The notes under the pieces are model-generated. The model saw only the letters and a program-made list of their open reading frames with translations. It searched no databases and was not told the DNA's origin. A stretch of 64,000 bases of DNA from Longitalea luteola (GTDB taxonomy: Bacteria; Bacteroidota; Bacteroidia; Chitinophagales; Chitinophagaceae), in assembly GCF_017356035.1 (NCBI RefSeq), contig NZ_JAFIQX010000008.1, forward strand, positions 186,001 to 250,000, in the 5' to 3' direction. Below, piece by piece: positions 2,437 to 61,336 of this stretch. Numbering within the stretch: the first letter of the stretch is position 1; the number at the start of each line of letters is the position of its first letter. A program made the translations under genes and the position numbers.

Positions 2437-2550
2437 GTTTGTGGTTTATGGTTTGTGGTTTGTGGTTCTTCCGGTGTAACCGGCTGATTAAATTTATACC
2501 TCCCGAATGGGAAACAACTACAAACAACAAACTACGAACTACAAACTATA
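2437..2550. repeat. Heptad-repeat hairpin between permease and oxidoreductase genes
   Basis: Two opposed arms of 7-bp units. Positions 2437-2471 read GTTTGTG GTTTATG GTTTGTG GTTTGTG GTTCTTC. Positions 2516-2550 read AACTACA AACAACA AACTACG AACTACA AACTATA, which is close to the reverse complement. The arms could fold into an imperfect hairpin with a loop of about 45 nt. The right arm runs over the stop codon (2546-2548) of the permease gene. Confidence 0.8.
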
Positions 2551-3583
2551 CACTGCCTAAGTAATTTCCATATGTTAAGGCAAGCACCGCTATTACTAAA
2601 ATAATAAGGGCCAAAACAAGCGTAACAATCGTTTTCCGGCGGCATTTCACCCATTCGCGCATCAACAAGCCCGCCACCGAGCTGAATAAAACCAGCATGA
2701 TCATGTGTATAGCCCAGCTGCTATACTGGTATTTCCCCATGCGCACATGTCCTAACCCATAAAAGAAGAATTGTGAATACCACAACATGCCGGTGAGTAC
2801 AGCCATGACAAAATTTACCAGCAAGCGATTGTTGGGTCCACTTTGCCGGTACTCGGCAAACGTTTTTTCTTTGCGGTGCAGGTATATGCAATATATAAGG
2901 GTAGATACAAAAGCGCCTGAATTCGAAAAAATGTAAACAATATTGATCTTGAAATTTCCACTGCCATATTTTGCAGCCACTTCCGCGATCGGTTCGCCCT
3001 GATCGATCGAAAAGCCATACACGGCCGATAACACTCCTGCGAGGAAACAAAGCGGTAAACCTTTGGCCAACGAAAAGGTATGGCCTGTATCGTGGTTTAA
3101 TCTCAGATCATTTTCTTTAAACCGGCCTGCCACGCCACAGCAGGCAATGCCCAGCGCACCGATGATGATGCCGGCCATGACCCAGCTGGCGCCGTTCTGC
3201 GAAAACAGGGAGGCCAACTGCCCGTGCACCAGCGGCGGCAATAAGGTTCCCAATACGCAGGAAATACCCACGGCAATGGCATAGGTGAGTGAAAATCCTA
3301 CATACCTGATAGCCATACCGAAAGCAGTACCGCCAATACCATAAGCCACACCATATATAAAGGTTTTAACCATGGCATCGGAAGGCGCTTCCCGTAATAC
3401 AGTGCCAATTTGGGGAATAGTTAACCAGGCGATCGCCAGCGGTAATAATAACCAGCAAACAGCGGCCTGCGCCAGCCAATAGGTTTGCCATGACCATTTC
3501 GCCACTTTCTTTTGCGGCGTGTAACACATGGCTGCACAGGAGGCTCCTACTGAATGATATATGACACCGGTTATTACTTCCAT
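2546..3583 (-). CDS. RhaT-like (DMT superfamily) sugar/proton symporter
   Basis: A 345-residue integral membrane protein with about ten hydrophobic segments, homologous in layout to the L-rhamnose/H+ symporter RhaT. The N-terminus MEVITGVIYHSVGASCAAMC followed by TPQKKVAKWSWQTYWLAQA matches the RhaT pattern (small-residue TM1, then a basic-aromatic loop). A second member of the same family lies at 55317-56405 inside the rhamnose operon. This copy instead sits with a Gfo/Idh/MocA oxidoreductase and a glycosidase-like gene, so it probably carries a different deoxy- or modified sugar. It follows a transcription terminator at 3656-3677 and may therefore have its own promoter. Confidence 0.85.
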   Translation of the reverse strand: MEVITGVIYHSVGASCAAMCYTPQKKVAKWSWQTYWLAQAAVCWLLLPLAIAWLTIPQIGTVLREAPSDAMVKTFIYGVAYGIGGTAFGMAIRYVGFSLTYAIAVGISCVLGTLLPPLVHGQLASLFSQNGASWVMAGIIIGALGIACCGVAGRFKENDLRLNHDTGHTFSLAKGLPLCFLAGVLSAVYGFSIDQGEPIAEVAAKYGSGNFKINIVYIFSNSGAFVSTLIYCIYLHRKEKTFAEYRQSGPNNRLLVNFVMAVLTGMLWYSQFFFYGLGHVRMGKYQYSSWAIHMIMLVLFSSVAGLLMREWVKCRRKTIVTLVLALIILVIAVLALTYGNYLGSV

Positions 3584-3655
3584 CTGGTTTGCACTCGTTA
3601 TTTAATTGTCAAACACACATTAATGTTACAACACAGTACAGGATCGATTGTATTA

Positions 3656-3677
3656 AAAACGCTAAATATAGCGTTTT
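3656..3677 (-). terminator. Intrinsic terminator after the amidohydrolase gene
   Basis: Perfect 9-bp inverted repeat AAAACGCTA / TAGCGTTTT with a 4-nt AATA loop. Read on the minus strand it ends in five T residues. It separates the CoA-transferase/amidohydrolase genes from the RhaT-like permease gene. Confidence 0.75.
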
Positions 3678-3733
3678 ATCATAACGTCAATAATACATTT
3701 ATATATCTTAATACTGGTTTAATAAATTTCTAA

Positions 3734-4579
3734 TCAAAGATTGTAAAAGGCTACCGCATTCTTATATGCCGCTTTCTGAAGGGCGGCATCGGTCAGTACA
3801 TTAGATAGCACTTTCATATACTGCTGCCAGGTGTGCTGATAGGTTCCCGCCAGCAGGCTCACCGGCCAGTCGCCGCCACAGCAAACGCGGTTCTCGCCAA
3901 AATGTTCCAGTACAAATTCAATATATGGCTGAATATCGTCGGTGGTCCAGCTACTGCCTTTTTTGGAACAGGTACCCAGGCCGGATATTTTCACATAAAA
4001 GTTCTTGTGCGATGCGGCTGTTCTCATCAGCTCGCCCCATTCGCCAAACCGCTCGCCGGTGGCAATGGGCGGCTGGTTCATGTGATCGAGCATCAACCTT
4101 AATTCCGGCACTTTCTGCGCTACTTCCAGGGCCGTTATCAAATGCTGGGGAGTTACACCCACCACATCGTACGGCACATCATAAGCCGCCAGCACAGAAA
4201 GACTTTGGGTCACCGCCGGTTGTAATAACCATTGCGGATCGGGTTCATCGTGTATCAGGTGGCGCACCCCCTTAAAATAAGGATTACCCAGGTATTCTTT
4301 GAGGGCGGTTGCTGTGAAGGAAGGATCCTGTAAAGGCATCCAGCCCACTACCCCTTTTATCCAGCCGGTTGCATTGGCAACCTGTAACATCCAGTTCGTG
4401 TCTTCAAAATTATTGGCCGCCTGCACCAGCACGCCGCCGGTAATGGCGGTCTTTTCTACTTCGGCCTGTAATTCTTCTATATCGTAATTGCGGTTAAGAA
4501 TAGAGGTATCGTTCTTCAACCACTCATACTCGGCTTTTGCAAAATTCCATATGTGAACATGCGTATCGATGATTTCCAT
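3734..4579 (-). CDS. Amidohydrolase-2 family lactonase (L-fuconolactonase/rhamnonolactonase-like)
   Basis: 281 residues from the ATG at 4579. An upstream in-frame start would add 16 residues, but MEIIDTHVHIW is the family's normal N-terminus. The HxH metal motif (His7, His9) opens a TIM barrel. HLIHDEPDPQWLL, LMLDHMNQPP and CCGGDWPVSLL carry the later barrel His/Asp positions expected in COG3618 proteins, which hydrolyse sugar-acid lactones such as L-fucono-1,5-lactone. It lies about 90 bp after the first CoA-transferase and just before a terminator, so it is the last gene of that unit. This suggests an oxidative sugar pathway running through a lactone; the substrate is inferred. Confidence 0.85.
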   Translation of the reverse strand: MEIIDTHVHIWNFAKAEYEWLKNDTSILNRNYDIEELQAEVEKTAITGGVLVQAANNFEDTNWMLQVANATGWIKGVVGWMPLQDPSFTATALKEYLGNPYFKGVRHLIHDEPDPQWLLQPAVTQSLSVLAAYDVPYDVVGVTPQHLITALEVAQKVPELRLMLDHMNQPPIATGERFGEWGELMRTAASHKNFYVKISGLGTCSKKGSSWTTDDIQPYIEFVLEHFGENRVCCGGDWPVSLLAGTYQHTWQQYMKVLSNVLTDAALQKAAYKNAVAFYNL

Positions 4580-4672
4580 GGCAATCCGTTTATATCGAAT
4601 ATTGATTAAGGTTTGTGTCAGCCGCAAGATACTAATAAGCAGTTACGGCCTCCCCGCTTTCTGCTTTATATC

Positions 4673-5889: not shown

Positions 5890-5982
5890 GTTACAGGTTT
5901 CAGGTTACAAGTTTCAGGGGGAAAAAGTTGATTTTGCGTTTTTAACATAAAACCCTGCAACCTGGACCTTGTAACCTGTAAC
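5890..5982. repeat. Heptad-repeat hairpin between the two CoA-transferase genes
   Basis: Left arm 5890-5919 is built of GTTACAG/GTTTCAG/GTTACAA units. Right arm 5953-5982 carries the complementary CCTGTAAC/CTTGTAAC words. The arms pair imperfectly over about 30 bp with a loop of about 33 nt. The right arm ends 14 bp from the stop codon of the upstream gene (5997). Confidence 0.8.
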
Positions 5983-9128: not shown

Positions 9129-9330
9129 CCTCGTCCTTGCTGCTTTTGCTAAATAACCAACACTGAACGCTTTAAAGTGGAAAGCTACACAATATTGCCA
9201 CGGGCGTCAATGTCAGGTTTAACTGAAATGATGGAATATTTTACTAAATAATAATGGCCTGCATGTAACAACTAAAGCACTTTTAAGCGAAAGCCCTCCA
9301 TATCTTACTAAATTCAAGGCATTTGGGGTT

Positions 9331-9538
9331 ACAGGGTGCAGGTTACAAGTTACAGGTTACAAGTTACAGGTTGAGTCGTTTAGGGAGTGGTGCCTTAAAT
9401 GGCAGGCGGTTAGAAAATCGACAGCGGCTTCGAACGAAAGAACCACAAACCAAAAACCATAAACCAAAAACTCCCGAAAAGTGACCGCGGCCTCCAATGC
9501 AAGAACCAACCCCCACAAATCATCAACCATAAACCAGT
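9331..9538. repeat. Heptad tract with an internal 63-bp duplication
   Basis: 9331-9372 is six 7-bp units (ACAAGTT/ACAGGTT). 9441-9475 is five units (AACCACA, AACCAAA, AACCATA, AACCAAA, AACTCCC). Positions 9413-9475 and 9476-9538 are a diverged tandem duplication: GAAAATCGACAGCGGC at 9413 matches GAAAAGTGACCGCGGC at 9476. The spacing of 63 bp is exactly nine heptads. The copies differ by substitutions while register is kept. Confidence 0.75.
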
Positions 9539-10681: not shown

Positions 10682-11992
10682 ATGACCACTGCTAAAACGC
10701 TGGTTGTCCCCATGAGCACACAGCGCACCAACACAACAGCTATTTTCATTATCGGCTTTTTGTTCTTTATTTTCGGTTTCATCACCTGGTTGAACGGCAG
10801 CCTTATCCAGTTCCTGACACTGGTTTGCCAGCTGGAAAGTGATGTACAGGCCTTTTTTGTGACCTTCGCATTCTATATGGCCTATTTCTTCCTGGCCATA
10901 CCATCTTCTGTTATTTTAAAACGCACCGGCTTCAAAAAAGGAATGGCGCTGGGTTTACTGGTGATGGCCATCGGTTCGCTGATCTTTATTCCGGCTGCTA
11001 AAGAAAGAAGTTTTGGCCTCTTTCTCACCGGCTTGTTTATACAGGGCATGGGGCTGGCATTGCTGCAAACCGCGTCCAATCCCTATATCAGTATCATCGG
11101 TCCTATTGAAAGCGCTGCCAAGCGTATCAGCATCATGGGCATTTGCAATAAGATCGCGGGTATCAGCAGTCCGTTGATATTAAGCGCCGTACTGTTAAAA
11201 GATGCCAATTCACTGGAACAAAATATCAATAAAGCCACCAGTATAGCCGAAAAAGAAGGCTTGCTGAATGCACTGTCGGCCCGGGTGATCAATCCTTATA
11301 TCATCCTGGCAGTTGTACTGGCTATCCTGGCATTCCTGTTATTGAAATCGCCCCTGCCCGAACCGCCGGCTGAGGAGGAAGAAAACACTACTACTATTAA
11401 CACTGCCAGCAATAAAAAAAGCATTTGGGAATTTCCGCACCTGTTACTGGGCGCCTTATGTATCTTCTTATATGTTGGTGTTGAAGTAATGGCCGGTGAT
11501 GCCATCGGTATCTATGGCAAAGCCATGGGCATGCCATTGGAAGAAACCAAAAAATTCACCTCCTTTACACTGGCCGCTATGCTGGTGGGCTACGTTATTG
11601 GCATCTTCACCATTCCTAAACTTATTTCACAACAAACTGCATTGCGGGTATCTGCCCTGCTGGGAATTGCTTTTTCTATTGGCGTATTTGTTACCAGCGG
11701 TTATACCGCCATTATATTTATTGCGCTGTTAGGACTGGCCAATGCCCTGATGTGGCCTGCCATCTGGCCCCTGGCCATTGACAAGCTGGGCAAATTCACC
11801 AAAACAGGTTCTGCCCTGCTGGTTATGGGTATTGCTGGCGGCGCTATTATTCCATTAATTTATGCATCACTTAAAAAAGAAGATGGATTGAACATGCCTA
11901 ACCACCTGGCTTTCTTCATTTGTATGCTTCCTTGTTATTTGTACATTTTATATTACGCCATTAAGGGGCATAAAGCGGGGAAGACAATGTGA
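10682..11992 (+). CDS. FHS-family sugar MFS transporter (FucP/NagP-like)
   Basis: 436 residues, twelve predicted membrane segments. FIFGFITWLNGSLIQFL in TM1 and GLFIQGMGLALLQTASNPY in TM4 are strong signatures of the fucose/glucose-galactose/N-acetylglucosamine porter group. The start is two bases after the kinase stop, so the two are co-transcribed and probably act on the same sugar. A later in-frame ATG (residue 11) is also possible. The last codons (KTM, then TGA) lie within an 8-bp repeat tract. A terminator hairpin follows at 12040. Confidence 0.92.
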   Translation: MTTAKTLVVPMSTQRTNTTAIFIIGFLFFIFGFITWLNGSLIQFLTLVCQLESDVQAFFVTFAFYMAYFFLAIPSSVILKRTGFKKGMALGLLVMAIGSLIFIPAAKERSFGLFLTGLFIQGMGLALLQTASNPYISIIGPIESAAKRISIMGICNKIAGISSPLILSAVLLKDANSLEQNINKATSIAEKEGLLNALSARVINPYIILAVVLAILAFLLLKSPLPEPPAEEEENTTTINTASNKKSIWEFPHLLLGALCIFLYVGVEVMAGDAIGIYGKAMGMPLEETKKFTSFTLAAMLVGYVIGIFTIPKLISQQTALRVSALLGIAFSIGVFVTSGYTAIIFIALLGLANALMWPAIWPLAIDKLGKFTKTGSALLVMGIAGGAIIPLIYASLKKEDGLNMPNHLAFFICMLPCYLYILYYAIKGHKAGKTM

Positions 11993-12022
11993 CAATGTGA
12001 TGATTCGATAATGTGATAATGA
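11983..12022. repeat. Five-copy 8-bp tandem repeat across a stop codon
   Basis: Units GACAATGT, GACAATGT, GATGATTC, GATAATGT, GATAATGA lie end to end. The first unit contains the transporter's final Thr and Met codons, and the TGA stop (11990-11992) straddles the junction of the first two. Confidence 0.75.
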
Positions 12023-12264: not shown

Positions 12265-12320
12265 GCGTTTTGCGTTCTGCGTTCTGCGTTTTGCGTTCTG
12301 CGTTTAGCGTTTTGCCTACC
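12265..12320. repeat. Eight-unit heptad array (GCGTTCT type)
   Basis: GCGTTTT, GCGTTCT, GCGTTCT, GCGTTTT, GCGTTCT, GCGTTTA, GCGTTTT, GCCTACC in perfect register. The last unit overlaps the TAG stop (12316-12318 on the minus strand) of the TonB-dependent receptor. Confidence 0.85.
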
Positions 12321-14724: not shown

Positions 14725-14885
14725 AGTGGGATATTACTTTATACCCCAAAAATGCCTGATACCCGAGGACCGGAAAAGTGAAGTAGGCCTGTTTGGCGAT
14801 TAATTCGACATGAGGGCAAAATTTGTAGATGAGAGGTTATTCAGTTATTTAGTTATTTAAACTTCGCGACTATATTTAGACTAAT

Positions 14886-14965
14886 GAACTTAATAACTTA
14901 GGAACTTAATAACTTATGAACTGAATAACTTATGAACTTAATAACTCAGGAACTGAATAACTTAA
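14886..14965. repeat. Five-copy 16-bp tandem repeat
   Basis: GAACTTAATAACTTAG-like units start at 14886, 14902, 14918, 14934 and 14950. A partial opposite-sense stretch (TTCAGTTATTTAGTTA) lies at about 14840-14858, so a hairpin is possible. The array runs over the TAA stop (14962-14964) of the response regulator. The rest of the 14725-14961 gap shows no gene. Confidence 0.85.
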
Positions 14966-16672: not shown

Positions 16673-17331
16673 GCGGTAATTGAAAGTACGAATGTAGATT
16701 TTTTAGCGGTACGCCCGTTTTGCGAATGACAACCGGCCTGTTTTTGGCGGCAAGCGGACGATTTTTGTCGATACGTCACCGGTTACCAGTAACCGGTTAC
16801 CAGTTACCAGTCGCCAGTTGCCAGTTGCGGGTACCAGTTGTCGCTACAGACCGGCAGGCATTCCCCAATGTCCTTGCACCGGTGAACCTGTTGCGGGGCT
16901 AAACCTTATGTAACCCGTTAACCTTATTAACTTTATCAATCCTGTATACTTTTAACCAGTTAAATCATGAACTGTTCAACCAGTTAGATCGGGAACTTGT
17001 CAACGCCGCTATCTTTCTTAGTAACAACGCTTTAGGTTTGGTTCACGGGTAACCTATCACACTTTGTATTCTTGACACTAATTCTCCCGCTCTTTACACA
17101 ATTTACCCCGCCGGCGCCAAACTCGTTAGCTTCCCGTACCTTCCCTACAGGTTTACCCTGATTTATTTGTATTAGTGACACAACTAATTTTTGAGAATTC
17201 ATAGTTTAAGTGTTATTTTGACACGAAACAGGCATGAAGGGCAATTCACGCAGTATCTTTGTAGCCAGAATACCGAACTTTGCCCGGATCGGATTATCAA
17301 TAAAAACACCTTTTTTGTTTTAGTTGCCGAT
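16673..17331. promoter_or_regulatory. Divergent control region between histidine kinase and araB
   Basis: 659 bp without a gene. It holds a heptad tract (16778-16839) and, nearer araB, three GACAC-containing sites: CTTGACACTAATT near 17083, GTGACACAACTAAT near 17174 and TTTTGACACGAAAC near 17217. The middle one contains the inverted pair ATTAGT/ACTAAT. TATCTTTG at 17254-17261 fits the Bacteroidota -7 box TAnnTTTG, about 70 nt before the araB ATG, but no good -33 TTTG stands 19-21 bp upstream of it. The GACAC sites are candidate operators for an arabinose regulator that is not in this window. Confidence 0.4.
16778..16839. repeat. Heptad tract (ACCAGTT/ACCGGTT type)
   Basis: Units ACCGGTT, ACCAGTA, ACCGGTT, ACCAGTT, ACCAGTC, GCCAGTT, GCCAGTT run in register; after a 6-base slip, one more ACCAGTT ends at 16839. 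Unlike most tracts here it lies upstream of gene starts and not at a stop codon. Confidence 0.8.
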
Positions 17332-19035: not shown

Positions 19036-19041
19036 TATGCA

Positions 19042-19099
19042 GTTACAGGTTACACGGAAATACAAAAGCCCGATACCCTGTAACCTGAAACTTGTAACC
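19042..19099. repeat. Heptad-repeat hairpin between araB and araD
   Basis: Left arm GTTACAGGTTACA begins at 19042. Right arm 19077-19099 carries CCTGTAACCTGAAACTTG and GTAACC words. About 12 bp can pair across a loop of about 20 nt. It uses the same words as the hairpins at 5890 and 51136. Confidence 0.7.
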
Positions 19100-19112
19100 C
19101 GAAACAATTAAG

Positions 19113-19811
19113 ATGAGCAAGTATCAGCATATACAACAAGAATGTTATAAGGCCAACATGCAACTGCCAGAACTCAATCTGGTATTATTCACTTTTGGCA
19201 ATGTAAGTGTAGCCGACAGAGATCTGGGTGTTTTTGCTATTAAACCCAGCGGCGTACCCTATAAGGATCTGAGCCCTGATAAAATGGTGATCGTTGATTT
19301 CAACGGCAAGATCATCAGCGGCGACCTTCGTCCTTCCAGCGACACCAAAACACATGCTGTATTGTATAAGGAATGGGAAAAGATCGGCGCCATTGTACAT
19401 ACCCACAGTACCTATGCTACTGCGTGGGCCCAGGCACAGCGCGATATTCCCATTTTCGGCACTACCCATGCCGATCATAATACCGTAGACATCCCGTGCG
19501 CGCCGCCCATGAGCGATGAAATGATCAAAGGCAATTATGAATTTGAGACCGGGTACCAGATCATCAACTGTTTCAACGAAAGAAAACTATCGTACGAGGA
19601 AGTGGAAATGATCCTGGTAGGTAATCACGCGCCTTTTGCCTGGGGAAAAAATGGCGACAAAGCCGTTTATAACGCCGCCGTACTGGAAGAAGTGGCCCGC
19701 ATGGCGTATCTCACCGAGCAGATCAATCCCAAAGCTCCCCGCCTGAAAGACGCACTGATCGACAAGCACTGGCAGCGGAAGCACGGAAAAGACGCTTATT
19801 ATGGACAATAG
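19113..19811 (+). CDS. araD: L-ribulose-5-phosphate 4-epimerase
   Basis: 232 residues (E. coli AraD has 231). A class II aldolase/epimerase fold with zinc-binding His96 and His98 in VHTHSTYATAW and a third histidine in VGNHAPFAWG. GNVSVADRD and IKPSGVPYKDL form the phosphate and substrate pocket, and Asp77 in RPSSDTKTH corresponds to the catalytic aspartate region. It converts L-ribulose-5-phosphate to D-xylulose-5-phosphate. It sits between araB and araA. Its last codons (Gly, Gln, stop) already belong to a repeat of GGCAATA units. Confidence 0.96.
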   Translation: MSKYQHIQQECYKANMQLPELNLVLFTFGNVSVADRDLGVFAIKPSGVPYKDLSPDKMVIVDFNGKIISGDLRPSSDTKTHAVLYKEWEKIGAIVHTHSTYATAWAQAQRDIPIFGTTHADHNTVDIPCAPPMSDEMIKGNYEFETGYQIINCFNERKLSYEEVEMILVGNHAPFAWGKNGDKAVYNAAVLEEVARMAYLTEQINPKAPRLKDALIDKHWQRKHGKDAYYGQ

Positions 19812-19951
19812 GCAATAGGCAATGGGCGATTGCAAGTTTATAGTTATTGAGTTGTGAGTTATGGAGTTAATGAATAGATGGTAAAAAAGGGTGCTATAAA
19901 GTTGAGGAGCCATTCACCATTCACCGTTGACTATTGACCATTCACCATTCA
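19804..19951. repeat. Composite heptad tracts between araD and araA
   Basis: GACAATA, GGCAATA, GGCAATG, GGCGATT occupy 19804-19831 and overlap the araD stop. AGTTATT/GAGTTGTG-like words follow. CCATTCA, CCATTCA, CCGTTGA, CTATTGA, CCATTCA, CCATTCA occupy 19910-19951 in perfect register. A short GTCA/TGAC inverted repeat lies near 19983, just before araA. Confidence 0.8.
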
Positions 19952-20008
19952 CGATTTAAACCCATCAATTAAAATAGCATTACGTCACATGACGATTGCA
20001 CATTAAAT

Positions 20009-23381: not shown

Positions 23382-23405
23382 TCGTCACTACGGTAATGAA
23401 AAAAC

Positions 23406-23440
23406 AAAAATGCCTCCCGATTTTATCAGGAGGCATTTTT
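23406..23440. terminator. Bidirectional intrinsic terminator
   Basis: Perfect 12-bp stem AAAAATGCCTCC (23406-23417) / GGAGGCATTTTT (23429-23440), 11-nt loop. It sits between the converging symporter (plus) and GH105 (minus) genes and can end both transcripts. Confidence 0.9.
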
Positions 23441-23449
23441 GTTATATCT

Positions 23450-23505
23450 GACTTCCGACTTCCGGCCTCCGACTTCTGACCTCCGGCTTCCGGCTTTCGG
23501 CTTTC
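23450..23505. repeat. Eight-unit heptad array (GACTTCC/GGCTTTC type)
   Basis: GACTTCC, GACTTCC, GGCCTCC, GACTTCT, GACCTCC, GGCTTCC, GGCTTTC, GGCTTTC in perfect register, ending 1 bp from the stop codon (23507) of the GH105 gene. Confidence 0.85.
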
Positions 23506-23506
23506 G

Positions 23507-44510: not shown

Positions 44511-47500
44511 ATGAAAAAAACGATTGCTATCAGGCGAAATGTCCTGCTCATTTCGCTACTTAAGCTATTTGCTATTTTCTCCTTCGCACAAAACAATTTT
44601 CCGGTAACAGGCAAAATAACAGACAATACAGGTGCCCCCCTGCAAGGTGTTACTGTTCAGGTCAAAGGCACTAAAGTTGCAACAGCAACAAAGCAGGATG
44701 GAACATTCTCCATTAATGCACCTTCAGGAAGTGCAGTGTTACTATTCAGTTCTGTTGGATTTATTTCGAGAGAAGTACCAATAGAAAATAAAGCACAAGT
44801 GAATGTCGTAATGAGTGCTGGTGATAACGCCATGGACCAGGTGGTGGTCATAGGTTACGGCGCTGTTAAAAAGCGGGATGTGACAGGCGCTGTTGCCGGC
44901 ATCAATGAAAAAGACATTAAATCAAGGCCGGTAAATGATGCCTTGCAGGCCATGCAGGGAAAGGTAGCCGGTGTTGATATCAGTTCCACAGAACGCCCCG
45001 GCACGGTGGCCACCGTGAATGTCCGCGGCGTACGGTCTTTAACGGCATCCAATTCACCGCTGTACGTTGTCGACGGCATTCCCCTGATGACCGGCGGCAT
45101 TGAATACATAAATCCGAATGATATTGAATCCATCGATGTATTGAAAGACGCCTCTGCGACCGCCATTTACGGCTCCCGCGGCGCCAACGGCGTGGTGATC
45201 GTAACTACCAAACAGGGCAAAGTGGGTAAAGCATCGCTGAACCTGAATCTTGCCACTACCGCAGAAGAGATCGTGAATAGAATGGAAATGTTCAATGCCG
45301 CAGATTATATCACCTTTCGCCGCTGGGCCTATTACTACAAGAACCCGGCGGTAAATCCGCGTGGTGATCAGCCTAATATTGCTCATGACAGAAGTATTTT
45401 CCTGGCCACCAGCGATCCTTCGGCCTGGGCGAATATTGCCAGGGGGTGGGCTTCGGGAACATGGGATGGATCTCAGGTGCAAACAACGGATTGGTTTGGA
45501 ATGGTAAGTCAGACCGGCATTACAAAGAACCTCACCCTCAGCGCTGGCGGAGGAAGTGAAAAAGCAAAAGCCTACGGTTCATTTGGCTATCTCGACAATA
45601 CAGGTACACAAAAAGGACAAAGTTTTAAAAGATATAACGCCAACGTAAATGTTGACATAAATGCTACCAAATGGTTTTCATTCGGTACTAACATGACAGT
45701 TGCTTACAGTATACAGGAATATGGACAATCAAGAACAGGCGCCACAACAACACAGTCATCGCACAGCGTTTTTGAATCGGCAAGAGCGCTGTTCCCGTAT
45801 GCGGTACCGTTTGATTCTGCGGGAAACCGGATCATTTATCCAGGTGGTGATATTGCCTTTAAAAATGTGGCTGACGAATGGACGCTGAATCAGGACCAAA
45901 GAACAACGCTGCGCGCATTCGGTAGCTTTTATGGCCAGCTTGACCTTGGAAGTATTCATTCCGCATTGGATGGATTGAAATACAGAGTGAACTTCGGGCC
46001 CGACTTTTCCACCTATCGGGATGGAACGTACATAGACCCAAATTCGGTGATCAGTACCGGTATAAGTTCTGCTTCGCTTACGAAGGCGCAAACATTCTCT
46101 TATACCCTCGATCACCTGATCTATTATAATAAAACCATCGGCCGGCATGATATAGGGCTGACTTTGCTGGGCAGCCAAACGAAGTTTAAATCAGACAGCA
46201 GTTATATCGCTGCCAACGGAATTGCTTTTGGAAGCCAGCGCTGGAACGCGTTATCCAAAAGCTATATTCCGGCCAATAACCTCACCGGATATACGTCAGG
46301 ACTCACCGAAAGCCAGTTACAGTCTTTTATGGCCCGTATAAACTATACGTTTAACGACAAGTATGTGCTGACGGTATCTGCCCGGCGCGATGGCGCCTCC
46401 CAGCTGGCCGAAGGTCATAAGTATTCCTGGTTCCCATCTATGGCTGTTGCCTGGAAAATGAATGAAGAAAGATTTATGCAGAATGCAACCTGGCTGAATG
46501 ACCTTAAGCTACGGTTTGGCGTTGGCGTTACCGGAAACTCCGCTATTAGTCCATATGCTACCCAGGGGCCCCTCACCTCGCTCTTTTACCCCTACACATC
46601 CACTATCACGCCAGGCGTTATTCCTTCACTAACTTTGGCCAATCAGTCGTTGGGCTGGGAAAAAACGACGCAATATAATGTGGGAATCGACTTTTCTGTG
46701 CTGAACAGAAGGATCTTTGGAAGCATTGACGTATATACATCAAGTACAAAAGATCTGTTAATGCAAATGTCTATTCCAACTGTTACCGGTTATCCGCAAA
46801 CATTTGCAAATGTTGGGCAAACAGCCAATAAAGGAATGGATCTGAGTTTAACATCTGTTAATATCAGGACAAAGAATCTTACCTGGACAACCAATGCCAG
46901 TATTTCGTGGCAAAAAGACAAGATCGTTTCGTTAGCGAATGGCAAGCAGGATGATATCAATAACAACTGGTTTATAGGTCAGCCTATTGAGGTGATCTAC
47001 AATTTCCAGGGCGCCGGCATCTGGCATCTGGAAGATTCAGCTGCTTACAAACAGTTTAACGCTAATGGAACGAATTTCACCCCCGGAAGCGCAAGACCTG
47101 TTGATATCAATGACGATAAAAAGATAGACCCCAATAATGACCGGACGATCATTGGGAATACAAGGCCAAGATGGATTGTGGGAATGACCAATACTGTCTC
47201 ATTCAAATCGTTCGAGTTTTCCATTTTCCTGTATGGCCGTTTAAAATACCTCTACAATACCGGTGGCGAAGCACAAACCGCTCGCGGCACCCAGCGGGCG
47301 ATCAGTTATTATAATGAGAACAATACGAATGCTGAATACCAGAAACCAATACATACTGAGGCAACCGGTGATCCATACTCGGTGGTGTTGGGTTTTAAAG
47401 ATGCTTCATTTATCAAGATCCGCAATATATCACTCGGATACAGCCTGACCGGCAAGGCGTTGAAAAAAACGGGCTTGTCGAATTTAAAAGCGTATGTCCA

Positions 47501-47630
47501 GATCGCTAATCCCGGGATGCTTTTTTCGAAGATCGACTGGCTCGATATGGATGTAGTCACCGTTACTCCTGCTTTTAATGGTGCTACCTACAACAGAGGT
47601 ATCACATTCGGATTGAACGCAACATTCTAA
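44511..47630 (+). CDS. SusC-family TonB-linked outer-membrane transporter
   Basis: 1039 residues. Signal peptide ending near IFSFAQ, carboxypeptidase-regulatory-like domain (about 30-105, FPVTGKITDNTGAPLQGVTV), then the SusC plug with VVVIGYGAVKKRDVTGAV, RGVRSLTASNSPLYVVDG and KDASATAIYGSRGANGVV. The barrel ends in FGLNATF. It imports oligosaccharides with the SusD partner that starts 32 bp downstream. Neighbouring GH78, GH105 and rhamnose genes suggest a pectin or arabinogalactan oligosaccharide ligand. There is no sigma/anti-sigma signalling extension at the N-terminus. Confidence 0.96.
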   Translation: MKKTIAIRRNVLLISLLKLFAIFSFAQNNFPVTGKITDNTGAPLQGVTVQVKGTKVATATKQDGTFSINAPSGSAVLLFSSVGFISREVPIENKAQVNVVMSAGDNAMDQVVVIGYGAVKKRDVTGAVAGINEKDIKSRPVNDALQAMQGKVAGVDISSTERPGTVATVNVRGVRSLTASNSPLYVVDGIPLMTGGIEYINPNDIESIDVLKDASATAIYGSRGANGVVIVTTKQGKVGKASLNLNLATTAEEIVNRMEMFNAADYITFRRWAYYYKNPAVNPRGDQPNIAHDRSIFLATSDPSAWANIARGWASGTWDGSQVQTTDWFGMVSQTGITKNLTLSAGGGSEKAKAYGSFGYLDNTGTQKGQSFKRYNANVNVDINATKWFSFGTNMTVAYSIQEYGQSRTGATTTQSSHSVFESARALFPYAVPFDSAGNRIIYPGGDIAFKNVADEWTLNQDQRTTLRAFGSFYGQLDLGSIHSALDGLKYRVNFGPDFSTYRDGTYIDPNSVISTGISSASLTKAQTFSYTLDHLIYYNKTIGRHDIGLTLLGSQTKFKSDSSYIAANGIAFGSQRWNALSKSYIPANNLTGYTSGLTESQLQSFMARINYTFNDKYVLTVSARRDGASQLAEGHKYSWFPSMAVAWKMNEERFMQNATWLNDLKLRFGVGVTGNSAISPYATQGPLTSLFYPYTSTITPGVIPSLTLANQSLGWEKTTQYNVGIDFSVLNRRIFGSIDVYTSSTKDLLMQMSIPTVTGYPQTFANVGQTANKGMDLSLTSVNIRTKNLTWTTNASISWQKDKIVSLANGKQDDINNNWFIGQPIEVIYNFQGAGIWHLEDSAAYKQFNANGTNFTPGSARPVDINDDKKIDPNNDRTIIGNTRPRWIVGMTNTVSFKSFEFSIFLYGRLKYLYNTGGEAQTARGTQRAISYYNENNTNAEYQKPIHTEATGDPYSVVLGFKDASFIKIRNISLGYSLTGKALKKTGLSNLKAYVQIANPGMLFSKIDWLDMDVVTVTPAFNGATYNRGITFGLNATF

Positions 47631-47662
47631 CCAGAAAGTGTAACGTTAAAAAAATCATCAGC

Positions 47663-49618
47663 ATGAAATCATTACAGTTAATTGTCAAGATATCCTTTCT
47701 TTCAGGCCTGATCTTTATGTCGTCCTGCAAAAAAGAATTCCTGAATGAGGAACTCACGACAGCCAGAGATATGGACTTTCTAAAGACCGATGCCGGTATC
47801 CTGCAGCTTGCAACAGGCACTTATTACCAGGTCTTCAATTTACCGTTTAGCACTGAATGGCCATATTGTACCCAAAACTACGGGGTGGATGAGTTTATGG
47901 TAGGCGGCGACGGGTCGAATGGCGTATGGAACAATTATGATGTCGGGTTCAGGTCTATTGTTACCATAAACAATGCGAATACCCAATTTGCCAACGCGCA
48001 GTGGGATAACCTTTATATCGGAATAGGTGATGCCAACCTGCTGATCGAGAATGCAACGGCCAGTACTTCCGGCGCTGATGCCATCAAAAAAACAGCGCTG
48101 GGCGAAGGCTATTTCTTCAGAGCATACTGTTACCTCAGACTCGTTTCCCAGTATGGTGCAGTTCCGCTGAAGACCACACCGAGTACCGCTGTTGAAAAGG
48201 AGTTTACCAGGGCTTCCCCTGAAGAAGTTTACAAACAGATAATAGACGATTTCAAAAAGGCCTATGATCTTTTACCTAATACAAATGCACCGGCAAAGAT
48301 CACAAAAGATGCAGCAGCCCACTATTTAGCGAAAGCGTACCTGTTCCGAGCCAGCGAGATCAATGATTCCTGGAACTCGGCCACCAAAGCAGCCGATCTG
48401 GCTGCGATCATCCCGTTGTGTGATGAAGTTATTTCCAGGCATCCATTGACCACTAACTTCGCAAACCTTTGGAACTATACCGCCCCTGATGGACCAAACG
48501 AAAGACTGCCGGAGCTCATTCTTTCCGCGCAATTCACCGCAGACGTTTCTACCAACGGTACCAATCAACAACACCTGTACTGGGCATCCCGTTATGACGA
48601 TATTCCTCAAATGCAACGGGATGTTACCGGCGACAGGCCGTTCAGCCGTTTGCGCACCAATTACTACCTATACAGGGTATATGACCAGGTGAACGACTCC
48701 CGGTTCTGGAAAAGCTTCAGAACAAAAAGCAGGTTGAACAAGTCAGCAGGCAATTATTATGTCAACGGTGATCTCGGTATAATCTACATTATAAACCAAC
48801 CCGGCGATAACCGCTTTTCCAATTTCAAGCTCAACGACGTTGTTGTTTATTCCAAAACAGGAAAAACAATTCCGAACGCCTATATCGCTTTCCCTGCAGG
48901 CAGAACAACAAACGGCGCCATGGAGGCCGATGTTCGGTTTCCGTCCTGTAGCAAACATATGGATGGTTCAAGAATAGGTTTCAACGAAACCAGGGGACTG
49001 CGTGATCTGAACCTGGCACGCTCGGCAGAAACTTACCTGATTGCAGCGGAAGCCAAAATAAGGTTGGCAAAAGCAGGTACCGGCGCTTATACCGATGCAT
49101 TGCCCTATATTAATGCAGTTCGCGTTCGTGCGCAATTTGTAACCGGTGAAGACCGCGCCGCGTATTATGACGGAGGCGGAGCGCTGGGCGCCTCCACTTC
49201 AGGCCAAAACCCTGATATCAATTCTTTCATGGCCGAAAATTCATATTACGAATCGAATAACATTCCTGTAACAACAGCTGCTACAAACCTGGCTATTACC
49301 GACATTAATACACTTCCTGCCAGCGACGAATATGTGATCGCTACGTTAGGAATAAGCGGCACGTATGACAGAATGCTGGCGCTTATACTGAATGAACGTT
49401 CTCGCGAGCTCTGTGGCGAATATAAACGCTGGGAAGATCTCTCAAGAACAAAGACCCTGGTTCAGCGGGTGAAGGCATTTAATTCGCAGGCAGCCCCTAA
49501 TGTCAGGGAACACCACCTGTTGCGAGCGATCCCACAAACTTACCTCGATGGCATTCAACTAAACGGAAAAGCGTTGACGCCCGAGGAAAAACAATCGCAG
49601 CAAAACGCCGGCTATTGA
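47663..49618 (+). CDS. SusD/RagB-family glycan-binding lipoprotein
   Basis: 651 residues. Lipoprotein signal ending in the lipobox SSC (Cys22 in FMSSCKKEF). SusD TPR-type helices: DNLYIGIGDANLLIENA, GEGYFFRAYCYLRLVSQYGA, EVYKQIIDDFKKAYDLLP and DAAAHYLAKAYLFRA. The C-terminus has the usual ILNERSRELCGEYKRWEDL and RAIPQTYLDGIQLNG. It caps SusC and captures the glycan at the cell surface. Last gene of the two-gene unit; a hairpin lies 16 bp after its stop. Confidence 0.96.
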   Translation: MKSLQLIVKISFLSGLIFMSSCKKEFLNEELTTARDMDFLKTDAGILQLATGTYYQVFNLPFSTEWPYCTQNYGVDEFMVGGDGSNGVWNNYDVGFRSIVTINNANTQFANAQWDNLYIGIGDANLLIENATASTSGADAIKKTALGEGYFFRAYCYLRLVSQYGAVPLKTTPSTAVEKEFTRASPEEVYKQIIDDFKKAYDLLPNTNAPAKITKDAAAHYLAKAYLFRASEINDSWNSATKAADLAAIIPLCDEVISRHPLTTNFANLWNYTAPDGPNERLPELILSAQFTADVSTNGTNQQHLYWASRYDDIPQMQRDVTGDRPFSRLRTNYYLYRVYDQVNDSRFWKSFRTKSRLNKSAGNYYVNGDLGIIYIINQPGDNRFSNFKLNDVVVYSKTGKTIPNAYIAFPAGRTTNGAMEADVRFPSCSKHMDGSRIGFNETRGLRDLNLARSAETYLIAAEAKIRLAKAGTGAYTDALPYINAVRVRAQFVTGEDRAAYYDGGGALGASTSGQNPDINSFMAENSYYESNNIPVTTAATNLAITDINTLPASDEYVIATLGISGTYDRMLALILNERSRELCGEYKRWEDLSRTKTLVQRVKAFNSQAAPNVREHHLLRAIPQTYLDGIQLNGKALTPEEKQSQQNAGY

Positions 49619-49634
49619 CCGCCGTGAAAAACTT

Positions 49635-49669
49635 AAGGTGTGCTACACTTCCAAAGTGCGGCACACCTT
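49635..49669. repeat. GTGCCAC-family hairpin between susD and rhamnose kinase
   Basis: 15-bp arms AAGGTGTGCTACACT (49635-49649) and AGTGCGGCACACCTT (49655-49669), 13 of 15 paired, loop TCCAA. It separates converging genes. It is followed by TACTTTTATAC, so it may serve as a weak terminator for susD. Confidence 0.7.
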
Positions 49670-49688
49670 TACTTTTATACTTTGAAAT

Positions 49689-51089: not shown

Positions 51090-51135
51090 TAGGACGCTTT
51101 TTCTCTCACTTGTTCTTTCGTAGTATTATTAAAGA

Positions 51136-51210
51136 GTTACAGGTTGCAAGTTACAGGTTACAGGGTTTGCCAATCTTTTCACCTGTAACTTGAAACCTGT
51201 AACCTGTAAC
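51136..51210. repeat. Heptad-repeat hairpin between rhaI and the kinase gene
   Basis: Left arm 51136-51164: GTTACAG GTTGCAA GTTACAG GTTACAG G. Right arm 51182-51210 is its near-exact complement, with 25 of 29 positions paired and a loop of about 17 nt. The right arm is 7 bp from the rhaI stop. It is the best hairpin of the heptad family here. Confidence 0.88.
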
Positions 51211-52930: not shown

Positions 52931-52940
52931 AGCAAATGTT

Positions 52941-53068
52941 GTTTGTGGTTTGTAGTTCGTGGTTTGTAGTTATTCGAGTGCAGCTTCGCTACTAATGGCT
53001 TATGACTGATTTTACCGGCCATCCCAAAGCGCGAAGCAACAACAAACTACAAACCACAAACCACAAAC
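52941..53068. repeat. Heptad-repeat hairpin between the aldolase fusion and rhaM
   Basis: Left arm 52941-52975: GTTTGTG GTTTGTA GTTCGTG GTTTGTA GTTATTC. Right arm 53040-53068 is CAACAAACTACAAACC followed by ACAAACCACAAAC, largely complementary to the left. The loop is about 65-70 nt. The right arm ends 7 bp from the stop of the aldolase fusion (53075). Confidence 0.83.
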
Positions 53069-53074: not shown

Positions 53075-55198
53075 TTATCTTACAAACGCCGTAGCTACAC
53101 CGCCATCAACATTGATGACATTACCGGTTGATTTGTTCAACAAACCACCTGTAACTGCGAAGCAGGCATTAGCGATGTCTTCAGGTAATATGATCTCGTT
53201 GAGCAGGGTGCGTTTGGCATAGTAAGCAGGTAATTCTTCTACTTTAATGCCATACGCTTTGGCGCGTCCTTCAGCCCATGCACCTTCCCATATTTTACTG
53301 TCAGAAATAACCGCATCGGGGTTCACCACATTCACCCGGATATGGTCCTTACCCAATTCGGCCGCATTCAGGCGGCTCAGGTGTAACTGGGCAGCTTTTG
53401 CAGAACCGTAACCGGCATTGTTGGGGCCGCTCATCAGGGCGTTCTTGCTTACGATGTTGATCACATCGCCGCCGATACCCTGTTTGCGCATCACTTCAAC
53501 GCCAGCCTGGGTTACAAAGAACTGACCTTTTACCAGCACATCGTACAGGATATCCCAGTCCTTCTCGGTATGTTCTTCAATGGGCTTTGAAATAGATAAA
53601 CCGGCACAGTTAACTACGATGTCCAAACCACCGAACGCGAGGGCTGCTGCATCGCAGGCGCCTTTAATATCACTGGCTTTGGTAACATCCAGAACAACGG
53701 CGGTAAATACGTCTTTACCGTATGATTTGTTGAAATCTTCTTTTGCTCCTTCGAGGCGTTGCGCATCATTGTCATTAATGATCACACAGGCGCCTTCGTC
53801 GGCAAATTTTTTGGCTATAGCTTTCCCTATTCCACCAGCACTACCGGTTACCAGCGCAATGCGGCCCGACAAAGCTTTTGGCTTGGGCATACGTTGCAGC
53901 TTGGCTTCTTCCAGCAACCAGTATTCGATATTAAAAGCCTCCTGGCGAGGCAGTGAAGTATATTCAGAGATGGCTTCGGCACCACGCATTACGTTAATGG
54001 CGTTGATGTAGAACTCTGCAGCCACCCGGGCAGTTTGTTTGTCTTTCGAGAAAGTGAACATACCTACGCCGGGGTACAGGATCACCACCGGGTTGGGATC
54101 GCGCATAGCCGGACTGTTAGGATGTTTGCAGGTATTGTAATAGTCTGCATACATAGCACGGTATGCTTCGAACTGCGGTGTCAGTTTCTCTTTGATCTTG
54201 CTTACATCGCTCAGGTCTTCGTTGGGTGTCAGGTTCAACACGAGCGGACTGATCTTTGTACGCAGGAAGTGGTCGGGGCAGCTGGTACCCATGGGTCCCA
54301 GTTTCTCGAGGTCTTTCGAGTTGATGAAGTTCAATACCCTTTCATCATCGGTGAAATGGCCCACCATTTTCTGGTAGCTCGAGCAAAAACCACGTAATAC
54401 AGGCGCCAGGGCGGCAGCTTGTGATGTACGTTGGGCAGCAGGCAGGGAAGTAACTTTAGCACCGCCGAAAACAGCTTTCTGTTGGCGCACTTTTTCCTCG
54501 ATGTATTCTGCGCAACGCTCAATCACTTCCAGGGTATTGATATAGCTTTCGTACGCTGTATCGCCCCAGGTGAACAAACCATGTGAGCCGAGCATGATAC
54601 CGCGGATGCCGGGGTTTTCTTCCAGGCATTTTGCGAGTTTCAGGCCCAGGTCGAAACCAGGACGCTGCCATTCAACCCAACCTATTGTACCGTTGAATAA
54701 TTCCTGGGTTATCTTTTTACCATCCTTTGCTGCAGCAATGGCGATGGCCGCATCAGGATGCAGGTGATCGATGTGTTTGAAAGGAAGGAAACCATGCAGC
54801 GGCGTATCGATGGAAGGCGCTTTTGACGCCAGGTCGAAAATGCAGTGATTGAACAATTCTACCATCTCATCTTCATGTTCGATACCCCGGTAAACATTTT
54901 TAAGGCTGCGTAAACGATCAACATATAAGGCAGCAAGACCGCTTTTCTTCATGGTGCCCAGGTCGCCCCCAGACCCTTTGATCCACATCACTTCAGTTTC
55001 TTTACCGGTTAAGGGGTCTTTTGCGATGGCTTTGCAGGAAGTATTGCCACCACCGTAGTTGGTAAGACGCAGATCGGCGCCCAACAGATTACTCCGGTAA
55101 ATTAACAATGCTACTTCATCGCCCTTCAGGGAGGCCGCTTTGGCTTCGTCCCACAAATAGCTTACATGCTTAAACTTTACTGCACTTGTTGCTGACAT
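53075..55198 (-). CDS. rhaEW: Bifunctional L-rhamnulose-1-phosphate aldolase / L-lactaldehyde dehydrogenase (RhaEW/YuxG type)
   Basis: 707 residues, a fusion. The N-terminal class II aldolase domain (about 15-400) has YGGGNTSCKAI, MWIKGSGGDLGTMKKSGLAA, the metal histidines in PLHGFLPFKHIDHLHPDA and GSHGLFTWGD. The C-terminal short-chain dehydrogenase (about 430-707) has VTGSAGGIGKAIAKKFADEG, VNCAGLSISKP and the catalytic GYGSAKAAQ. It splits L-rhamnulose-1-phosphate to DHAP and L-lactaldehyde and oxidises the aldehyde to lactate. Domain order and length match Bacillus YuxG. It follows rhaT in the operon. Confidence 0.95.
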   Translation of the reverse strand: MSATSAVKFKHVSYLWDEAKAASLKGDEVALLIYRSNLLGADLRLTNYGGGNTSCKAIAKDPLTGKETEVMWIKGSGGDLGTMKKSGLAALYVDRLRSLKNVYRGIEHEDEMVELFNHCIFDLASKAPSIDTPLHGFLPFKHIDHLHPDAAIAIAAAKDGKKITQELFNGTIGWVEWQRPGFDLGLKLAKCLEENPGIRGIMLGSHGLFTWGDTAYESYINTLEVIERCAEYIEEKVRQQKAVFGGAKVTSLPAAQRTSQAAALAPVLRGFCSSYQKMVGHFTDDERVLNFINSKDLEKLGPMGTSCPDHFLRTKISPLVLNLTPNEDLSDVSKIKEKLTPQFEAYRAMYADYYNTCKHPNSPAMRDPNPVVILYPGVGMFTFSKDKQTARVAAEFYINAINVMRGAEAISEYTSLPRQEAFNIEYWLLEEAKLQRMPKPKALSGRIALVTGSAGGIGKAIAKKFADEGACVIINDNDAQRLEGAKEDFNKSYGKDVFTAVVLDVTKASDIKGACDAAALAFGGLDIVVNCAGLSISKPIEEHTEKDWDILYDVLVKGQFFVTQAGVEVMRKQGIGGDVINIVSKNALMSGPNNAGYGSAKAAQLHLSRLNAAELGKDHIRVNVVNPDAVISDSKIWEGAWAEGRAKAYGIKVEELPAYYAKRTLLNEIILPEDIANACFAVTGGLLNKSTGNVINVDGGVATAFVR

Positions 55199-55239
55199 AG
55201 TCTGTTCTTTATTTTGTTCGTTTAAATATTATCTTCTGC

Positions 55240-55284
55240 GGTGTGCCACACCTTCTGGGCTGCGGTAAAAAGGTGTGGCACACC
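55240..55284. repeat. GTGCCAC-family hairpin between rhaT and the aldolase fusion
   Basis: Perfect 13-bp arms GGTGTGCCACACC (55240-55252) and GGTGTGGCACACC (55272-55284), 19-nt loop. A further GTGGCACC copy lies at about 55295. It is the strongest member of this hairpin family. Confidence 0.85.
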
Positions 55285-55316
55285 TCCTCGAACCGTGGCA
55301 CCCTTCATTGATATTA

Positions 55317-60173: not shown

Positions 60174-60540
60174 ACAACAAGTTCAGGGTAAAAAACAGCC
60201 TCGGAATAGGTGTAAATACCCATTTATCCATTTTTATTAAATTTTTTTTGATTTCGAATAGTAATAAAGGCGTGGAAAGTTGTTTTAATACTAAACTAGC
60301 AATTATTCGGCCGTGCGGGATATAAATACAAAGTTCTTTAAGCTTGAATATATTTAATGAGTATTGTTTTAAAAGTATAGCCATCTAAAACACTTTGGCA
60401 GTTTTATTAAATAATATTTAAGAACATACAGTGATTGTTGTACACAGTGAAGATTACAGTATAGCAATATGTAGTAACGAGAAAAATTACTGCTCACTGT
60501 ATTATGTGTTTACTAGTGCGACGGGGTTAATTTGTTACGT

Positions 60541-60728
60541 GTATCAAACTTAACCCTGAACTATAAATGAACAAGTAGCCTTTATCAGGCCTTTTTTGTC
60601 CGCCCGATGTATGCATCTGTACTTTTCGTTCTTTCAGCCAGACGAGAAGACGGAATGTCGAGCGGGAATCTCATGTGACTGTTTGGTTGGGTCACTACAA
60701 GGGAGTGTTTCTACTCTCCCTTTTTTTT
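60541..60728 (+). ncRNA. Candidate structured small RNA ending in an intrinsic terminator
   Basis: There is no reading frame. The 3' end has a GTGAC/GTCAC stem (60675-60679 with 60691-60695) followed by a strong terminator: AAGGGAG (60699-60705) / CTCCCTT (60716-60722) and eight T residues. An upstream GACGGAATGTC mini-hairpin and CCCG/CGGG arms (around 60604 and 60663) suggest further structure. A weaker terminator-like GCC/GGC plus T6 lies at 60578-60597. The 5' end is arbitrary and no exact promoter was found. Confidence 0.35.
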
Positions 60729-61019
60729 AAAAATTCGAACATCTCTATATAAAGTAATTGCCTTTATACCCTGCCTCGTCAGGTATTCATTCAAACCGAA
60801 TCCATCTAATACACATTATATACGTGTATTAACTACATCAAAAGCATCTAAAGGCTCCACATTAGTAGAATTTTTCCAAAGGCATTTCTGATTAGTTAAA
60901 CAATGCAAGGTTTGTACATCCATGCGGGCATACCAATGCCGAAATGGTTTATATACATCTTTAACCTAAAGCAATCAGGTAGTTTTTTTCTCATTCGCAT
61001 TCCTCATGTGCATCAATTA

Positions 61020-61090
61020 TCCCTCTTCCTGGTACAGAAGAGGCGCAGGAATCCCCCACGGCCGGGTAGTCTTACCCGGCTTTCCTTTTT
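61020..61090 (+). ncRNA. Second candidate small RNA or leader with tandem stems and terminator
   Basis: Stem CCTCTT (61022-61027) / AAGAGG (61038-61043), 10-nt loop, is followed by the terminator GCCGGGTA (61061-61068) / TACCCGGC (61073-61080) with loop GTCT and TTTCCTTTTT. Stem-plus-terminator layout repeats that of 60675-60728. No protein gene ends upstream on this strand for 850 bp, so a terminator here implies a transcript that starts in the gap. The 5' end is unknown. Confidence 0.35.
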
Positions 61091-61189
61091 CCTTACCGTT
61101 CCTGCCTTTTGCGTTCTGCTTACAGCCTATTTACCTTTTATCTATTATCTATTGCTTCCTGCCTTTTTTCCTTTTGAGTATTGCTTATT

Positions 61190-61336
61190 GCCTTTTGTCT
61201 ATTGCCTTTAGCCTTCAGCCTTGTGCCTTTTGTCTATTACCTTTAGCTTTCAGCTTTCAGCCTTCAGCCTTGTGCCTTTTGTCTATTGCCCTTAGCCTTC
61301 AGCTTTCAGCCTTCGGACTTCAGACCTCCGCCTCCG
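61190..61336. repeat. Twenty-one-unit heptad array with higher-order period
   Basis: Units in perfect register: GCCTTTT, GTCTATT, GCCTTTA, GCCTTCA, GCCTTGT and variants, ending in GACTTCA, GACCTCC, GCCTCCG. The block GCCTTTTGTCTATT recurs at 61190, 61225 and 61274, spacings of 35 and 49 bp (five and seven units). Looser units extend back to about 61090. It is the longest tract in the window and is not next to a stop codon. The rest of 61337-61791 shows no gene. Confidence 0.9.

Follow-up and report, generated by a model that had tools for sequence, protein, structure and literature searches.

Short tandemly repeated repetitive sequences of cyanobacteria are mostly intergenic heptanucleotide direct repeats, while repetitive extragenic palindromic (REP) sequences and bacterial interspersed mosaic elements (BIMEs) are extragenic palindromes present in many copies, the REPs sharing a conserved palindrome. 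Stems made of tandem heptamers are described for the P6b region of the tRNA-Leu (UAA) intron of Nostoc and Calothrix, where one word was repeatedly replaced by another in separate lineages (PMC4476775). In the account given for Xanthomonas, intergenic GGGAATC heptamers form 70 (Xcc) and 75 (Xac) close convergent pairs and mostly have the same flanking genes in the two species (PMC4692102). The TAACTGA repeats of Beggiatoaceae are presented as mostly intergenic heptanucleotide direct repeats, in the BOGUAY genome mostly just upstream of starts, and occur also in five Bacteroidetes, some of which have further heptamer repeats in those gaps; the same source cites Mrazek 2007 for a heptamer excess in bacterial genomes and for polymerase slippage (PMC4679880). 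A high density of short repeats is reported for Bacteroidota (PMC12699852). In the open-access literature we found no description of repeat-armed intergenic hairpins in this phylum. Here we analyze a 64,000-nucleotide stretch of the Longitalea luteola genome (the window; contig C42, positions 186,001 to 250,000), in which gaps between genes carry tandem arrays of 7- or 8-bp words, many of them paired as the arms of hairpins.

Intergenic arrays of period 7 and 8

An earlier note on the window had listed fifteen gaps with runs of 7-bp units. Tandem Repeats Finder (TRF) gave a period-7 or period-14 row in 13 of these (in the gap of 19042 on the second arm of a hairpin, 19079-19105) and none at 31900 and 52578, where the runs are weak by eye. 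Our sample comprised 700 kb of the 7.3 Mb genome (43 contigs), with all gap and coding counts taken from the gene calls of a custom hexamer script. Autocorrelation of 245 gaps (400 kb and the window), the check that the note had proposed, yielded peaks at lags 7, 14, and 21 and weaker ones at 8, 28, and 35, and none of these appeared in coding DNA or in one shuffle. At a score of at least 12, the 374 gaps of the 700-kb sample (122 kb) held 107 period-7 and 52 period-8 arrays, with 0-4 for each of the periods 4-6 and 9-12, and one dinucleotide shuffle of the gaps left none at any period. Coding DNA (574 kb) contained three arrays of period 7, three of period 6, and one each of periods 9 and 12. 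An Escherichia coli control gave 0 arrays in 37 gaps (25.7 kb), a small and weak control since the gene caller missed many genes (53 called in 100 kb) and part of its "gap" DNA is coding. By these counts the feature belongs to the heptanucleotide class of long simple sequence repeats (tandem units of 5-11 nt beyond chance). The period is not fixed at 7 as had been supposed, a second period of 8 having been missed, and the view that arrays dominate the intergenic DNA was too strong, their share being ∼15% in gaps of 60-900 bp at a lax threshold.

The claim of a shared vocabulary held up across the genome. Three consecutive GTTACAG units, with up to three mismatches, matched 405 sites in the 7.3 Mb, and the backwards pattern matched none. 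Two hundred arrays with a score of at least 10 reduced to 78 consensus words, mostly about a dozen families, of which the commonest are AACCTGT (GTTACAG on the other strand; 26 arrays), AATGTGCT (24), AAATCTCG (15), AAAACGC (15), and AATGGTG (13). Most consensus words lack GGG (e.g., GTTACAG, GTTTGTG, and GAAGTAA); AAATCCCG, with three arrays, has CCC. The control for the word GAAGTAG was noisy in the L. luteola genome (49 matches vs 21 backwards), whereas the backwards GTTACAG control gave 0-11 matches across the genus. GTTACAG matches were found in 40 of 148 genomes of relatives, with 53-413 in all nine other genomes of the genus and, outside it, 94 in genome G037 and at most 23 elsewhere. 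In 512 gaps of named loci from other Bacteroidota, we counted 45 arrays of period 7, six of period 8, nine of period 10, and five of period 5. Other Bacteroidota also carry long heptamer arrays that are almost perfect and use distinct words (G166 C23:266527, G162 C26:137704, and G174 C1:1662923). Taken together, the feature is a real, intergenic, multi-word repeat family of period 7 or 8.

Hairpin anatomy and polarity

Many gaps carry two arrays in inverted orientation that form the arms of a hairpin. The recurrence of words in both orientations, which the earlier note had recorded, is in good part due to this anatomy, since the two copies in a gap are the arms of one inverted repeat; the hairpins and their fixed polarity had been overlooked. 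An inverted relative (score of at least 14) lay within 200 bp of 31 of 112 arrays compared to 19 of 560 foreign neighborhoods. Hairpin counts depend on the threshold: in the same 374 gaps, a lax rule found 56 repeat-armed inverted repeats (in 36 of 248 tandem, 11 of 60 convergent, and 8 of 66 divergent gaps) and a strict rule 33, all of period 7 or 8 and none in called genes. In the lax count, as in the placement and coverage/skew analyses, gaps over 900 bp were trimmed to their ends or omitted. Among 91 inverted repeats in the gaps, repeat arms of period 7 were present in 22 and of period 8 in 11; among control inverted repeats the numbers were 0 of 3 (one shuffle), 0 of 26 (coding DNA), and 0 of 6 (E. 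coli gaps). Many arrays have no detected partner.

The hairpins share a polarity across unrelated words. The 5′ arm has more G than C in 26 of 33 L. luteola hairpins (6 with less, 1 tie), in 30 of 38 from the syntenic blocks of eight relatives (3 with less, 5 ties), and in 26 of 34 from 80 named Bacteroidota loci (3 with less, 5 ties), three of these loci being from the same genomes as three of the blocks. For GTTACAG followed by a gap and CTGTAACCTG, ten genus genomes gave 260 matches vs 8 in the opposite order, counts that may include overlapping matches and a single hairpin read from each strand, and that do include some sequences other than arrays. Among pairs of L. luteola hairpins with similar arms, polarity was shared in 62 and differed in 5. 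Partnerless arrays follow the same sense: within 40 bp of a stop codon, 36 of 47 are G-richer on the coding strand (8 C-richer, 3 ties), and near starts 12 of 19 are C-richer (5 opposite, 2 ties); paired arrays gave 26 of 30 and 10 of 11 in the same tests. With the arrays masked, gap DNA beside starts is skewed in the same direction but less strongly, and in convergent gaps the skew is near zero, so we rejected a general base-composition skew of gaps as the cause of the polarity, although G-poor DNA next to starts may add to the start-side bias. A role as Rho sites was dropped by reasoning, as the C-richer arm comes second on both strands.

Arms of one class were combined in 31 of 32 GTTAC-type hairpins, for which the Fisher p of 4e-8 is too low because the hairpins were found by complementarity and orthologues were counted several times. 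Pairing of arms was slightly better within a hairpin than between hairpins of one family (15.3 vs 14.3), and the own partner was best or tied in 27 of 41, although the hairpins were selected for internal pairing. The distance of hairpins to the stop (median 24) was smaller than that to the next start (55; n = 35, Wilcoxon p 0.0013). In RNA folding, five window hairpins gave z scores of -4.1 to -8.5 and two single arrays +2.3 and -2.4 (Table 1). Terminator-like hairpins adjoin arrays by eye, for instance at 23382-23446 beside the GACTTCC array. The window has no Rfam matches and no tRNA gene.

The anatomy recurs more widely. In the 170 bp downstream of the aldolase gene of the 80 named loci (score of at least 11), 11 had a repeat-armed hairpin (three Niastella-like loci, Filimonas zeae, Chitinophaga rupis, Terrimonas ginsenosidimutans, two Mucilaginibacter, and three metagenome-assembled genomes), 9 another inverted repeat, and 60 none. 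Over the whole loci, 37 repeat-armed inverted repeats occurred in 19 of the 80, with period 7 in 26, 8 in 6, 9 in 3, and 10 and 11 in one each.

Table 1. Arrays and hairpins of the window, with positions counted from its first letter
Feature	Positions	Word or sequence	Remarks
Hairpin	arms 2438-2470 / 2513-2545	GTTTGTG..CACAAAC	loop 42 bp; RNA fold z -4.1
Hairpin	arms 5890-5919 / 5953-5982	GTTACAG..CTGTAAC	RNA fold z -4.4
Two arrays, different words	9327-9372; 9441-9471	GTTACAG/GTTACAA; AACCAAA	TRF and by eye
Period-8 array	11983-12021	GATAATGT	TRF
Single period-7 array	12265-12315	GCGTTTT/GCGTTCT	abuts stop codon of minus-strand gene at 12316; no notable RNA fold on minus strand, z +2.3
Period-8 inverted pair	14836-14965	GTTATTTA / AACTTAAT	
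Period-7 array	16775-16828	GTTACCA	TRF
Hairpin	arms 19041-19057 / 19076-19092	GTTACAG..CTGTAAC	second array extends to 19105; RNA fold z -4.2
Two arrays, weak inverted pair	19806-19830; 19910-19956	CAATAGG; CCATTCA	
Single period-7 array	23447-23506	GACTTCC	abuts stop codon of minus-strand gene at 23507; RNA fold z -2.4
Two arrays	36399-36431; 36436-36468	AACGCAA; AAACCAT	convergent gap
Period-7/14 array	42518-42545	GTTACAGGTTCCAG	
Hairpin, gap g31/g32	span 51135-51210; arms 51136-51158 / 51181-51203	GTTACAG	RNA fold z -7.9 and -6.0, two strands
Hairpin, gap g33/g34	span 52937-53068; arms 52941-52971 / 53038-53068	GTTTGTG	RNA fold z -8.5
Long degenerate period-7 arrays	61130-61153; 61179-61328	TTTATCT; TTTTGCC/GCCTTCA	35- and 49-bp higher-order repeats

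Other repeats were seen in the same sample. A 20-bp perfect palindrome, CCTGCCTGCCGGCAGGCAGG, occurs seven times in 600 kb of contig C11 (213880, 253207, 322892, 437200, 483900, 514819, and 575535) and is absent from 100 kb of C42; judged by eye, its 20-bp flanks place it in or beside heptamer or octamer words (AACGC and GATTT types), as if inserted. Palindromes around GGTGTGCCACACC and GTGGCACACCTT stand at window positions 55199-55316 and 49619-49688, in gaps without heptamer arrays. Gaps of C11 also hold higher-order satellites (258024-258480, 265690-265998, 282996-283421, 46717-48449, and 587291-588827), with a unit of ∼35 bp in three, two of which are ∼75-80% alike between gaps, and with long near-identical tandem blocks besides.

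Word change in orthologous gaps

We compared nine syntenic genomes, that of L. luteola and eight relatives in the genus, across the window, which is syntenic among them apart from some lost and some inserted genes. For the aldolase/dehydrogenase gene at 53075-55198, the nearest named records, in a list that may omit the entry of the genome itself, are Longitalea arenae (98% identity), Niastella soli (97%), and N. yeongjuensis (96%); the label Niastella-like used here derives from these matches. A repeat-armed hairpin was present in 48 of 243 gap-by-genome cells, and the gaps that hold them tend to be shared between genomes (107 co-occurring pairs vs a mean of 32 and a maximum of 53 in 2000 shuffles that ignore gap length and descent). 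Gap g31/g32 is occupied in all nine genomes, g12/g13 and g33/g34 in seven each, and g3/g4 and g32/g33 in five each. In G002 some orthologous gaps are nearly empty (10 bp at g3/g4 and 40 bp at g0/g1), with flanks too diverged for target duplication to be judged.

Even sister species carry different words in a given gap, with the difference present in both arms. For instance, g31/g32 carries GTTACAG (A-type) in five genomes, GTTACCG (C-type) in three, and another word in one, and in a tree of 28 shared genes the sister pairs L. luteola/G007, G002/G006, and G009/G005 each combine one A-type and one C-type stem. Each GTTACCG genome thus has a GTTACAG sister, which implies at least three switches or exchanges. 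At g33/g34, four genomes have GTTTGTG-like and three GAAGTAA-like words; by eye, G005 has a GAATGTT array and G002 an inverted repeat without tandem units. At g0/g1 the arm word drifts by eye while the loop stays alignable, the loops of L. luteola and G007 being 92.5% alike. This presence, absence, and word change, all seen between species, lend only indirect support to the active expansion or copying that the earlier note had suspected.

To follow the two arms base by base, we aligned the g31/g32 stem of eight genomes, omitting G003 for its different word. Two-sided changes were found in 10 of 29 stem pairs, a number reached in 0 of 500 shuffles and reduced to 1-4 when the alignment was slid by one to three columns. 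In the three C-type genomes, A-U is exchanged for C-G at columns 8, 15, 22, and 29, one per heptad. Overall, 85% of stem cells pair, and the covariation score was 0.244 vs 0.115 for shuffles (reached in 0 of 500) and at most 0.083 when slid.

Origin of the arrays and relation to known systems

As the most likely explanation we tentatively propose arrays that grew by slippage and whose complementarity is maintained through arm-templated copying, with loose selection for a stem-loop. Arrays would grow and be homogenized by replication slippage in steps of 7-8 nt. The second arm may arise, and stay roughly complementary, through fold-back template switching as in quasipalindrome correction; in yeast, template switching between the arms of an inverted repeat is described as homogenizing them (PMC8604942). 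Purifying selection would exclude arrays from genes and probably favor, or at least tolerate, a stem-loop at cistron ends. The word itself would be nearly free of constraint, and so could drift or be replaced while the stem persists.

Several observations weigh against this explanation. Slippage and fold-back copying do not predict a polarity, and neither the fixed G-richer-first order across unrelated words nor repeated switching at one gap is accounted for. Four of the 29 g31/g32 stem pairs are broken in five or six of eight genomes, and further pair types are no more numerous than in shuffles, of which 228 of 500 attain the observed number; such persistent mismatches without an excess of pair types argue against steady correction by arm copying. 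By eye, the loop at g33/g34 changes along with the arms. Direct relatives are about as frequent within 200 bp (30 of 112 arrays, score of at least 14) as inverted ones, and hairpins also occupy divergent gaps. Finally, the C-type arm 24-mer at g31/g32 is identical in G007 and G005, although G005 has three matches in all with up to two mismatches, and the first 100 bp of g31 are 94% alike between G006 and G007, both C-type, vs 90% and 86% with their sisters.

These last points suit another reading, in which words switch between species by short-tract exchange through homologous recombination rather than through events within a single genome. The similarity of same-type arms across the tree fits this reading, and the 94% likeness beside the gap makes exchange of a short tract possible there. 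However, exact copies of the C-type 24-mer also occur elsewhere (C39 of L. luteola and C35 of G007), so it could be a common arrangement of the family, and both flanks of the C-type G005 are nearest A-type relatives (96% with G009 in g31; in the final 100 bp of g32, 89% with G009 and G004 vs 79% and 74% with G006 and G007). As the cause of the g31/g32 switches, exchange is unsupported for G005 and hinted at for G006/G007. It also leaves the origin of the arrays unexplained, and we give it a slim chance. A better case, though one we consider rather unlikely, is that the hairpins are selected RNA structures acting in intercistronic processing, 3′ end protection, or attenuation, with compensatory selection alone matching the arms and the repeats being incidental. 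The stem at g31/g32 persists in nine of nine genomes with three words, G002 has its plain inverted repeat at g33/g34 where seven others are repeat-armed, and the RNA folds, the covariation, and the placement nearer stops fit as well. Yet four units in both arms would have to change together, some orthologous gaps are nearly empty, 60 of the 80 loci lack any inverted repeat downstream of the aldolase gene, and divergent gaps carry hairpins too. Arrays as binding sites for a nucleoid protein or RNA binder every 7-8 nt would explain the regular spacing and the strand bias near stops and starts, but the many unrelated words in one genome and the change of word at one site argue against sequence recognition by a protein, and this is the least likely of the alternatives.

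Palindromes of the miniature inverted-repeat transposable element or REP/RAYT (REP-associated tyrosine transposase) type that transpose as a unit would account for word families in many copies and for gaps with and without them, but loops are seldom shared. In 78 loops compared (E <=1e-6), matches comprised five orthologous pairs, one pair within a gap, two neighboring gaps of G001, and two gaps that have a separate 20-bp palindrome in common; of the weaker matches, five were orthologous and five not. This comparison took in 56 L. luteola hairpins, and recent copies could escape it. A 73-bp stretch of the 52937 hairpin loop has no second copy in ten genomes. Mostly local loops argue against transposition as a unit, which is therefore unlikely as the main cause, and a single conserved palindrome with copies alike including the loop, as in REP/RAYT systems, was not found in the hairpin sample. 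The genome has one Y1_Tnp (RAYT-like) gene (L201, C39:257267-257602), which, like the loop shared by the two G001 gaps, would speak for mobility; any link of the gene to a palindrome would be hypothetical, its 3.3-kb locus has no match to the palindrome pattern, and we rejected it as a driver. The chance of mobile palindromes is slightly smaller than that of tract exchange. The polarity would fit a telomere-like writer that adds a word to 3′ ends at breaks or gaps from a small template set, so that the G-strand word points 3′ to the center in both arms. The three polarity counts, the 260 vs 8 order of GTTACAG, the small vocabulary with two periods, and arms of the same class all fit, and RVT_1 genes exceed the cut-off in nine of ten genus genomes, an unspecific sign. 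Against it, the loops are of local sequence and in part conserved among orthologues, many arrays stand without a detected partner, and a search limited to the RVT_1 family identified no template RNA or enzyme; we consider such a writer improbable. Its broadest form, a dedicated, telomere-like process that writes 7-8 nt G-strand words from a small set onto DNA 3′ ends in Bacteroidota gaps, yields convergent arms with a word swappable in place, and also underlies the Nostoc and Xanthomonas stems, seems more doubtful still.

The feature brings separate reports (stems in the Nostoc intron, heptamer pairs in Xanthomonas, and the bacterial heptamer excess) under one anatomy, a hairpin with repeat arms whose G-richer strand is convergent. 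The nine syntenic Niastella-like genomes offer replicate histories of word change at single sites, and through them the preference of long bacterial microsatellites for 7 nt and the joint change of both arms become testable.

The closest kin are known in two other phyla. As in the published description of Nostoc P6b, both arms of a stem are made of one heptamer and the word is replaced, whereas P6b is one group I intron site with two words there, and here many intergenic sites carry about a dozen families with periods 7 and 8 in a member of Bacteroidota (PMC4476775). The words TDNGATT and NNTGAGT printed for the trnL intron differ from the main words here, so the earlier note's view of a family distinct from the Nostoc type stands for the words, though the kind was already known from P6b stems and Xanthomonas pairs. 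Like the GGGAATC pairs, for which G first is our reading of the report, close pairs here have the G-richer strand convergent; unlike that single G4-forming word, the words here are many and most lack runs of three G (PMC4692102). TAACTGA repeats, as characterized in their source, differ in that the arrays here are often inverted arms and nearer stops (PMC4679880). With REPs and BIMEs the hairpins have in common that they are extragenic and in many copies, but what they share among themselves is period, polarity, and vocabulary, with loops mostly local.

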